Positions 36,249 through 39,228 of a stretch of DNA of 47,120 nt are shown here, piece by piece. The notes beneath the pieces were generated by a model that saw only the letters and a list, made by a program, of their open reading frames with translations, searched no databases and was not told the DNA's origin. Origin of the DNA: Clostridiaceae bacterium (GTDB lineage: Bacteria; Bacillota; Clostridia; DSM-8532); NCBI GenBank assembly GCA_012521615.1, contig JAAYMA010000021.1:1-47120 (forward strand), written 5' to 3'. The translations under genes were made by a program, and so were the position numbers. The stretch's first letter is position 1, and every line of letters starts with the position of its first letter.

Positions 36249-36291
36249 TTTGATTTGCGTCACATTAATAAGGAAACATAATCGGTACAAT
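36249..36291 (+). promoter_or_regulatory. ric promoter with possible FNR/CRP-type site
   Basis: TACAAT (36286-36291) is a good -10 without a good -35. TTTGAT-ttgc-GTCACA (36249-36264) resembles the FNR/DNR family site TTGAT-N4-ATCAA and is centred about 41.5 bases before the expected start (near 36298), the class II activator position. Confidence 0.45.
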
Positions 36292-36333: not shown

Positions 36334-37050
36334 ATGCGTAAATTTGAGAGTACACAAAAAATAGGAGACATAGTGGCAGATTTTCCGAAAGCTTCAGATC
36401 TTTTTATGGAATATAAAATTGATTTTTGCTGCGGTGGAAACAGGCCATTGAAAGAAGCAATAGCTGAAAGCGGTTTGGATGAAGATCAAATAGTTAACGA
36501 ATTAAATGAATTATTTAATGAATTCACTGAGAAAAATGACATTGTAAAAGACTGGCGTAAAGAACCTATAGAGGATCTGATCAATCATATATTAATGAAA
36601 CACCATGCTTATCTTTGGTCCGAGCTTCCAAAAATAAGTGAACTTACAACTAAAATTTTAAGGGTTCATGGAGAAGGTCATCCTGAACTTTTCAAGGTCC
36701 ACAGACTTTTCCATATGGTAAAAATGGAGCTTGAAGAGCATTTGGTAAAGGAAGAAACTTATCAATATCCGGCAATAAGAAACTATGAAGAAAGCGGCAG
36801 TAAAGAGGATCTTGATAAAGCAGTAAAAATAATAAAAGAGCTTGAAGATGAGCATAGTGAAGCAGGCCATATTCTAAAAGAGTTAAGAACTGTAACAGGT
36901 GACTTTAAACTGCCGGAAGATGCATGTGCAACATATGAGCTGACATACAACAAACTTCAGGAACTTGAAGCTGACGTATTTCAGCATGTTCATCTTGAAA
37001 ACAATATACTTTTTCCAAGGTTATTTGAATTACAGGCCCAAAAATCATAA
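36334..37050 (+). CDS. ric: Iron-sulfur cluster repair protein Ric (YtfE/ScdA)
   Basis: A 238-residue di-iron protein that repairs iron-sulfur clusters damaged by nitric oxide or oxygen. The N-terminal ScdA-type domain has TQKIGDIVADFPKASDLFMEYKIDFCCGGN with its conserved CysCys. The hemerythrin-like domain follows, with the metal-binding residues in HHAYLWSELPKI, HPELFKVHRLFHMVKMELEEHLVKEE, EHSEAGHILKEL and HVHLENNILFPRL. I start it at 36334, preceded by AACAGGAGG; the upstream in-frame extension has no ribosome site. The next genes are a metal-binding domain protein and a metal ATPase. Confidence 0.93.
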   Translation: MRKFESTQKIGDIVADFPKASDLFMEYKIDFCCGGNRPLKEAIAESGLDEDQIVNELNELFNEFTEKNDIVKDWRKEPIEDLINHILMKHHAYLWSELPKISELTTKILRVHGEGHPELFKVHRLFHMVKMELEEHLVKEETYQYPAIRNYEESGSKEDLDKAVKIIKELEDEHSEAGHILKELRTVTGDFKLPEDACATYELTYNKLQELEADVFQHVHLENNILFPRLFELQAQKS

Positions 37051-37125: not shown

Positions 37126-37347
37126 ATGAAAAAAGCAGAATTCAAACTGGACACATTAACTTGTCCTACATGTGTTAAAAAAATCGAAAATTCTTTAAAC
37201 AAAACAAAAGGGATAAATTCCGTAAGAGTACTTTTTAATTCAAGTAAGGTCAAGGTGGAATTTGATGAAAATGAGACTAATGCAGACAAAATAGGGGGAG
37301 TTTTATTAAGTCTGGGCTTTACTGTTTTATCAACAAAAATAACATAG
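37126..37347 (+). CDS. Heavy-metal-associated (HMA) domain protein
   Basis: A free HMA domain of 73 residues, like CopZ or an N-terminal domain of a metal ATPase. The metal site is LTCPTCVKKIENSL (CxxC), followed by the ferredoxin-like fold GINSVRVLFNSSKVKVEFDENETNADKIGGVLLSLGF. It has the Cys-Pro-Thr-Cys form instead of the GMTCxxC of copper chaperones. The start may be the ATG at 37126 or a GTG at 37117; AAAGGAG sits between 3 and 13 bases away. Only 27 bases separate it from the ATPase, so it probably serves that pump. Confidence 0.85.
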   Translation: MKKAEFKLDTLTCPTCVKKIENSLNKTKGINSVRVLFNSSKVKVEFDENETNADKIGGVLLSLGFTVLSTKIT

Positions 37348-37374
37348 AAGTTTAATCAGATGGGGGGTAAAAGT

Positions 37375-39228
37375 GTGCTATATATTAATAAGTACAAAAA
37401 TAAAATAACGGCAATATCAGGTATTCTTATAGTTTTTGGCTTCATAACAGGAGCATTTGGATATATAAATTTTAAAAATGCCCTTCTGATATTAGCAACA
37501 GTACTTGCTGGAATACCAATTATTATAAAGGCCGTACAGGCGTTGAGATTAAAAACTTTCAGTATAGAACTTCTGGTTTCAATAGCCATAATCGGCGCGA
37601 TTTACATTCAGGAATTTACCGAATCATCGGTTGTTTCATTTCTGTTCCTTCTTGGTGACTATCTGGAAGCAAGAACCCTTGAAAAGACCCGTTCATCCCT
37701 GAAAACCTTGATTGACATGGCGCCTCAGGAAGCAACAGTGGTTCGTGACGGGCAAACTATCACAATACCTGCTGAAGAGGTTGAAAAAGGAGACAGAGTA
37801 GTCATAAAATCAGGTGGCAAAATACCTGTCGACGGCAGTATTGTTCTTGGTCAGGCATCCATCATTGAAGCAGCCATTACCGGCGAATCCACCCCTGTCT
37901 TTAAAGAAGTTAACGACAAAGTTTTTACGGGATCAATTATTGATAATGGGTATATAGAAATAATTGCTGAAAAAGTAGGTGATGATACTACTTTCGCAAA
38001 AATTATCGAGCTTGTTGAGGAGGCTCAGGAATCCAAATCCAAAACTCAAAAATTCCTGGATAAGTTTGCAAATGTTTATACTCCTGCAATAGTTCTGCTT
38101 GCTATAATAGTCTTTATTATAACGCGTGATCTACGTCTTTCAATTACTTTCCTGGTTGTCGCATGTCCCGGAGCTCTTGTTATAGGAGCACCGGTTTCAA
38201 ACGTGGCAGGAATAGGTAACGGCGCAAGGAATGGAGTTCTAATCAAAGGCGGGGAGGTTATGGATAAACTCTCCAAAGTTGACGTAATTGTGTTTGATAA
38301 AACCGGTACACTGACAAAAGGAAAGCCTGAGGTTACTGATATCAAAGTCTTTGGTGATATAGGCACAGATGAATTGTTAGGTCTTGTGGCAAAGGCTGAG
38401 ACAATATCTGAACATCATCTGGGGCAGACAATTGTAAAAGAAGCTGAAAAACGTAATCTGGATATAAATAACGATTCTGTTTCTGGTGAAATAATCAAAG
38501 GCAGTGGAATTAAAGCCGTTGTAGATGGCAGAAGCGTTATAGCAGGCAATTATAAATTAATGAATAATGAAAATATAGAAATGGATGATAAGGTTCTGCA
38601 ATATGCAACAGAGCGGGAGAAAGAAGGAAATACCGCAGTTTATGCAGCAATTGACGGTCAAATTAAAGGCATTTTTTCAATAGCAGATAAAATACGTGAT
38701 GATGCGCTTACTTCTTTAAAGCAACTTCGTAAAAATGGCATTAAGAAATTTGTAATGCTTACTGGTGATAACAGACATACTGCGAGGCTTGTCTCTGGAA
38801 AGCTTGGTATTGATGAGTTTTATGCAGAACTTTTACCTGATGAAAAGGTGGAACATATTAAGAAACTTAAAAATAAAGGTCATGTGGTAGCAATGGCGGG
38901 GGACGGAATAAATGATGCTCCGGCAATTGCATTGGCTGATATAGGTCTGGCAATGGGAGAAGGTGGTACCGATGTTGCCATGGAGACTGCCGATGTGGTA
39001 TTAATGGCAGATAAATTAATTCAGTTCTCACATGCCTATGCCCTTTCCAAAGCTACAATCAGAAATATCAGACAAAACACTTTCTTTGCTGTTGCTGTAG
39101 TAATAGTACTTCTGGCCGGCGTGCTTTCAGGCAATGTTCATCTGGCATCGGGAATGTTCATCCATGAGGCAAGTGTTCTGCTTGTTATTCTTAATGCCAT
39201 GAGGCTGATAAGGTTTAAAAGCCGTTAG
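37375..39228 (+). CDS. P1B-type metal-transporting ATPase, atypical metal site
   Basis: A membrane metal pump of 617 residues with no N-terminal metal-binding domain. It has the usual parts: TGES (169-172) in the actuator domain, DKTGT phosphorylation site (308-312), TGDN, and GDGINDAPAI. Eight helices are predicted. The transmembrane metal motif is CPG (Cys264-Pro265-Gly266), where Zn/Cd/Cu pumps have CPC and P1B-4 pumps have SPC. The nucleotide-domain HP motif reads EHH (346-348). TM8 carries HEAS (597-600), close to HEGG[ST] of P1B-4 Fe/Co pumps. The GTG at 37375 is chosen, after GGGGGGTAA; the ATG at 37360 has no ribosome site. Substrate is uncertain; iron or cobalt is a guess. Confidence 0.88.
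   Translation: MLYINKYKNKITAISGILIVFGFITGAFGYINFKNALLILATVLAGIPIIIKAVQALRLKTFSIELLVSIAIIGAIYIQEFTESSVVSFLFLLGDYLEARTLEKTRSSLKTLIDMAPQEATVVRDGQTITIPAEEVEKGDRVVIKSGGKIPVDGSIVLGQASIIEAAITGESTPVFKEVNDKVFTGSIIDNGYIEIIAEKVGDDTTFAKIIELVEEAQESKSKTQKFLDKFANVYTPAIVLLAIIVFIITRDLRLSITFLVVACPGALVIGAPVSNVAGIGNGARNGVLIKGGEVMDKLSKVDVIVFDKTGTLTKGKPEVTDIKVFGDIGTDELLGLVAKAETISEHHLGQTIVKEAEKRNLDINNDSVSGEIIKGSGIKAVVDGRSVIAGNYKLMNNENIEMDDKVLQYATEREKEGNTAVYAAIDGQIKGIFSIADKIRDDALTSLKQLRKNGIKKFVMLTGDNRHTARLVSGKLGIDEFYAELLPDEKVEHIKKLKNKGHVVAMAGDGINDAPAIALADIGLAMGEGGTDVAMETADVVLMADKLIQFSHAYALSKATIRNIRQNTFFAVAVVIVLLAGVLSGNVHLASGMFIHEASVLLVILNAMRLIRFKSR

Follow-up and report, generated by a model that had tools for sequence, protein, structure and literature searches.

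A conserved CPG-type branch of P1B ATPases with a stand-alone CPxC HMA partner and ferrous iron as candidate cargo

P1B pumps are usually classified by their TM6 and TM8 motifs, and a uniform CPG motif was not found in the literature searched. The stretch of clostridial DNA analysed here (contig JAAYMA010000021.1, 47,120 nucleotides, hereafter the window) encodes such a pump with Cys-Pro-Gly in TM6, which raises the question of where it belongs among the P1B ATPases and which metal it moves.

The pump gene and its motifs

The pump and its three unusual motifs are located as follows:

37360..39228, + strand: CPG-type P1B ATPase, 622 aa from ATG; alternative start GTG 37375 (617 aa)
38164..38172, + strand: TM6 CPG (tgtcccgga), C269-P270-G271, within ACPGALVIG; invariant in 40/40 CPG-clade rows
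38407..38418, + strand: SEHH, a variant of the SEHP nucleotide-binding motif, residues 350-353 (SEHHLG 350-355)
39154..39174, + strand: TM8 M599-F-I-H602-E603-A-S605, proposed metal ligands; M599 and H602 in 40/40, E603 in 39/40

As a start codon the GTG at 37375 is equal to or better than the ATG, with GGGGGG just 5' of it and relatives starting near there. The reading frame is intact, contains the P-type hallmarks TGES, DKTGT, MLTGDN and GDGINDAP, and has a GC content of 39.3%, compared with 38.6% for the window. Membership of the P1B family is indicated by a profile match (TIGR01525, 574.3 bits, cut-off 346), by DKTGT, GDGxND and a CPx motif in TM6, and by eight long helices in a predicted structure of low confidence (19 homologues), whose mean pLDDT of 67.5 drops below 50 around TM6 and TM8 and hence at the metal site. 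As the pump exceeds the cut-offs of both the Cd-type and the Cu-type NCBI models, profile matching gives no metal, and automatic substrate labels are unreliable.

The TM8 stretch reads GMFIHEASVLLVILNAMRL, in which HEAS corresponds to H602-E603-A604-S605. In agreement with a previous sequence-only reading of this DNA, the pump has CPG in TM6, EHH in its nucleotide domain and HEAS at TM8. The same three motifs recur in 18 close relatives, mostly Bacillaceae and 67-74% identical, wherever their sequences extend over the region. EHH, which had been counted among the deviations, is a real variant of SEHP but a minor one: it keeps the catalytic His and occurs in the window's subgroup and scattered others, and also in one CPC pump (L145).

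The CPG branch among P1B pumps

Of the 399 genomes sampled from the phylum, 68 gave a CPG-pump match at the E-value used. Clostridial relatives, other phylum members and a single actinobacterial MAG (L019) carry such pumps, which are also found on Lactococcus, Lactiplantibacillus, Enterococcus, Listeria, Weissella and Staphylococcus plasmids. Among 40 representatives of the clade, T263, G271, G598, M599 and H602 are invariant and E603 is kept in 39; CPG and G-M-x-x-H-E are family-wide. A tabulation of motifs pairs CPG with H-[EQ]-x-S in TM8, with one S-to-N exception (L065). The retention of the motifs in the 18 relatives, and of CPG and H602 in all 40 representatives, speaks against both chance and sequencing error.

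A tree of 72 P1B pumps was computed with the motif columns removed. Besides the 40 CPG representatives it included E. coli CopA and ZntA, SilP, PbrA, CadA, sCoaT, Nia, a CPH-type pump and others as references, and it covers no P1B-6, P1B-7 or APC-type (CtpG) pumps. All 40 CPG rows lie on one side of a single branch (SH-aLRT 100), which in the free tree lies apart from the Cu, Zn/Cd and Co/Fe groups sampled. The P1B-4 (SPC) pumps join the CadA-type pumps, with CPG outside both. The monophyly of the CPG pumps is well supported; as sister group, the AU test rejects neither P1B-4 (CPG and SPC as one clade, p 0.19) nor the CadA group (p 0.23). Thus, the phylogeny against P1B pumps suggested in the sequence-only reading yields a separate branch, but sister groupings with the Zn/Cd and Co/Fe groups stay within the AU range. 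The pump lies inside neither the Zn/Cd nor the Cu clade of this tree, and the proposal that the pump is divergent and coordinates its metal in its own way is supported, though for a large conserved subfamily rather than a one-off.

The motifs were also compared with each subgroup. SPC of P1B-4 is absent, with CPG in the window and in 40/40 rows, and HEASV stands in place of HEG[GS][ST], His-Glu being common to both. Where P1B-2 pumps have CPC, a Lys in TM7 and an Asp in TM8, this pump has CPG, Val and His. It has neither CPC nor MxxSS of P1B-1 and falls outside the Cu clade in the free tree; compared with P1B-5, the motif is CPG, not TPC, and the hemerythrin domain is encoded by a separate gene, not fused. 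CPG likewise differs from APC of the CtpG-type pumps and from SPC and CSC, the TM6 motifs of P1B-6 and P1B-7.

The only annotation of the group at present is 'heavy metal translocating P-type ATPase', and in the openly searchable literature neither a paper naming a CPG-type P1B group nor a metal, transport or expression assay of one of its members was found. On sequence grounds, the CPG-type pumps apparently form a real, conserved P1B subfamily without a name. A comparison with the distribution of P1B-4 is uninformative as to whether the two are complementary: 12 genomes carry an SPC pump and 68 have CPG-range matches, with one shared (G390) where chance would give about 2. In the window's genome the CPG pump is of the Bacillus type (~70% identity to Bacilli), while genomes of the same genus have other subtypes at 49-52% or none, a mismatch that suggests horizontal transfer or differential loss. 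Two further sequences, L143 and L146, represent a different P1B group of unusual type, in which TM6 has CPC and TM8 has ALVHNAGS, not the usual Asp or Met motifs, and the P1B-like pump L159 (G055:C1:1348926-1350581) has DYSCALKLALP in TM6, with YSC replacing CPC.

Partner protein, neighbouring genes and FNR boxes

Upstream of the pump the window contains:

36250..36263, + strand: FNR-box-like palindrome TTGATTTGCGTCAC, ~70 bp before the RIC start; best candidate in the window
36334..37050, + strand: RIC/YtfE/ScdA-type di-iron Fe-S repair protein with ScdA_N and hemerythrin domains (TIGR03652 269.9 bits, cut-off 204.7; PF04405, PF01814)
37126..37347, + strand: stand-alone 73-aa HMA-domain metal-binding protein, motif LTCPTC (PF00403, 46.4 bits)

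The HMA gene, which the sequence-only reading had missed, ends 12 bp before the pump ATG. The lack of an N-terminal metal-binding domain described there holds for the polypeptide but not for the locus, and with an HMA gene directly adjacent, the missing fused domain is no argument for P1B-4. Stand-alone HMA genes are present within 5.5 kb in 60 of 65 CPG loci (within 1 kb in 58, of which 57 share the strand of the pump), compared with 20 of 40 control pumps (CopA and other P1B pumps of the same genome group). The HMA proteins of CPG loci have a CPxC site in 58 of 60 cases (43 CPSC, 10 CPDC), those of the controls in 0 of 20. Pump and partner each bear their own signature.

A small glutaredoxin-like gene is found near three chromosomal CPG pumps (L111, L112, L138), and a thioredoxin and a metal-sensitive (CsoR-type) regulator near a plasmid-encoded one (L057); the glutaredoxin-like and thioredoxin neighbours could be relevant to a redox control of the CPxC site.

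The RIC gene is the probable first gene of an operon with the HMA and pump genes. Hemerythrin-type (RIC) genes are located near 15 of 65 CPG pumps, the window included, and Dps near 8 of 65, both against 0 of 40 for the controls. Plasmid clusters combine the CPG pump with the iron exporter subunit FetB and Dps, or with a VIT1/CCC1 transporter and Dps. Overall, iron genes are found near a minority of CPG loci.

The palindrome TTGATTTGCGTCAC is one mismatch away from TTGAT-N4-GTCAA, which is common upstream of relatives. With 2 matches to TTGATN4RTCAM found and 0.8 expected per window, the single site is weak, and it is the family statistic that carries weight. TTGAT-N4-ATCAA with at most one mismatch was found within 700 bp upstream in 44 of 63 CPG loci (37 distinct sites; 4.6 expected), 19 of them perfect (0.3 expected), and in 2 of 39 control loci (2.7 expected); the expectations were Markov-resampled. 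As the loci are related, they do not count as independent events, yet they differ strongly from the controls. The signal of a Crp-type box, TGTGA-N6-TCACA, was far weaker (3 matches, 0.7 expected). Crp/Fnr genes, many with Cys/His-rich N-termini, are located near 38 of 65 CPG pumps and 2 of 40 controls, and 14 of the 44 box-bearing CPG loci lack one nearby. The window itself has no adjacent Crp/Fnr gene and an imperfect FNR-like site; an unlinked Crp/Fnr protein of the same family is encoded in its genome (E 1.4e-74). A dedicated metal sensor (ArsR/SmtB, MerR-type or CopY/CueR-type) is not among the recurrent neighbours.

The candidate cargo and known systems

The best explanation, to which we give about an even chance, is an FNR-controlled P1B exporter of a distinct CPG subfamily, with its own CPxC HMA protein and Fe(II) as the most likely cargo. 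For the direction of transport, the ligand set, the role of the HMA protein and the metal we infer the following. The stand-alone CPxC HMA protein (37126-37347) probably hands the metal to the pump, where the ion would be bound in the membrane by Cys269 of TM6 and His602/Glu603 of TM8, perhaps with Met599 and Ser605, and be expelled via the usual phosphorylation cycle (DKTGT). Transcription would be controlled by an FNR/FLP-type regulator, and its signal would hence be oxygen, NO or redox state, not a metal detected by a dedicated sensor. The pump may thereby dump excess ferrous iron upon Fe-S cluster damage or a shift in oxygen status, acting beside RIC/hemerythrin, Dps and other iron exporters.

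Iron as cargo is plausible from the gene content around relatives, namely hemerythrin/RIC, Dps, FetB, VIT1 and FNR-type control. Among the window's relatives, most genomes with a CPG pump encode a CopA-like pump and a further P1B pump as well, and Cu and Zn/Cd thus look already served there. Together with the FNR control and the lack of a recurrent metal sensor, this favours Fe(II). TM7 and TM8 of the CPG pumps also resemble P1B-4, with no TM7 Lys and His-Glu in TM8. Of the two metals put forward in the sequence-only reading, iron or cobalt, the latter is without support of its own.

The metals known to be handled by HMA proteins with a CxxC site are Cu(I) and Zn(II)/Cd(II), and Fe(II) is not known to be one of them. 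CxxC HMA domains fit Zn(II), which is a serious rival cargo: the CPG pumps could be Zn(II) exporters fed by a Zn-HMA protein under redox-sensitive FLP control. A paper by Scott et al. from 2000 reportedly links, by its title, Flp proteins to zinc uptake and oxidative stress. PMC9964109 describes a role of Lactococcus flpB (FlpB) in zinc homeostasis and a deletion in MG1614 that removed flpB together with opp genes; on plasmid pVF50, oppDF follows a cluster that encodes a CPG pump, an HMA protein, a Dps-like protein and a Crp/Fnr regulator. The window's genome, moreover, has no P1B pump besides CopA and the CPG pump, but it does encode a CDF exporter, and most CPG-bearing relatives have another CPC-type P1B pump. 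As both the TM7 Lys and the TM8 Asp, hallmarks of Zn/Cd pumps, are absent, ArsR/SmtB and MerR-type regulators are missing from the recurrent neighbours, and iron-linked Dps, FetB and VIT1 are found instead, we consider Zn(II) export unlikely, though the strongest competitor. Judged from sequence context, Fe(II) is probably the first choice and Zn(II) the second.

A diverged P1B-4 (Fe/Co) pump, its TM6 Cys shifted from the third to the first position, is suggested by the best PDB profile match (sCoaT 7qbz, 453.6 bits, narrowly), the alignment of HEGST with HEASV in TM8, the missing TM7 Lys and the clade with SPC pumps that the AU test does not reject. However, SPC occurs in 0 of 40 CPG rows and the free tree pairs P1B-4 with CadA-type pumps, leaving CPG outside; no P1B-4 pump is known to have a CPxC HMA partner or FNR control, and this origin appears distinctly improbable. 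Even less probable is a Cu(I) exporter with a CopZ-like chaperone. The CPx motif and the stand-alone HMA protein recall CopA/CopZ, and a metal-sensitive (CsoR-type) regulator and a multicopper oxidase occur near single plasmid members, but the Cu-type M-x-x-S-S is absent from TM8, the HMA protein has a CPxC and not a CxHC site, no CopY/CueR-type regulator recurs, and the window's genome already encodes CopA, with two HMA domains, as well as a distinct CopZ-like protein. That the window's pump, which has lost one TM6 Cys and the proline of the HP motif, is a degenerate or regulatory pseudo-pump is hardly credible, with all catalytic motifs intact, many intact ORFs across the phylum and the site conserved in 40/40.

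The Fe(II) reading has a stronger form, in which the CPG pumps are an unrecognised Fe(II)-exporting subfamily under oxygen/NO control and the HMA protein is the first iron-delivering HMA-fold metallochaperone; we put this forward tentatively, as rather unlikely in its entirety. With the paired CPG/CPxC signatures and the FNR box, the subfamily can be defined simply, and a link from oxygen/NO sensing to metal efflux becomes testable.

Among known systems, the P1B-4 pump sCoaT (7qbz) shares the lack of a fused HMA domain, a single TM6 Cys, His-Glu in TM8 and no TM7 Lys, but has SPC and HEG[GS]T where the CPG pumps have CPG and HExS, and is on a separate branch in the free tree; CoaT, PfeT, FrvA and PmtA are further P1B-4 ATPases. 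P1B-2 pumps (ZntA, CadA, PbrA) agree in architecture, in ~38% identity to CadA and in the first TM6 Cys, and differ in CPC, TM8 Asp and TM7 Lys versus CPG, His-Glu and no Lys, and in their regulators. CopA with CopZ (P1B-1) likewise joins a pump to a stand-alone HMA protein, but with CPC/MxxSS rather than CPG/HExS, CxHC rather than CPxC, and Cu sensors rather than FNR-type control. Nia of P1B-5, in which a C-terminal hemerythrin domain is fused, shares the link between pump and hemerythrin and a Glu in TM8; it has TPC/QE, is far away in the tree, and its hemerythrin counterpart in the window is a separate gene. CtpG of Mycobacterium bovis, a zinc exporter with APC/HEFTE (PMC9045314), also has a non-canonical TM6 with a single Cys and HE in TM8, but its Cys is at the third position, and it is outside the tree sample. 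As to the Lactococcus operons of the FNR-like FlpA/FlpB, synteny, the only ground here, suggests that their pump gene is a CPG pump: the pVF50 cluster adjoins opp genes, as flpB does in MG1614.
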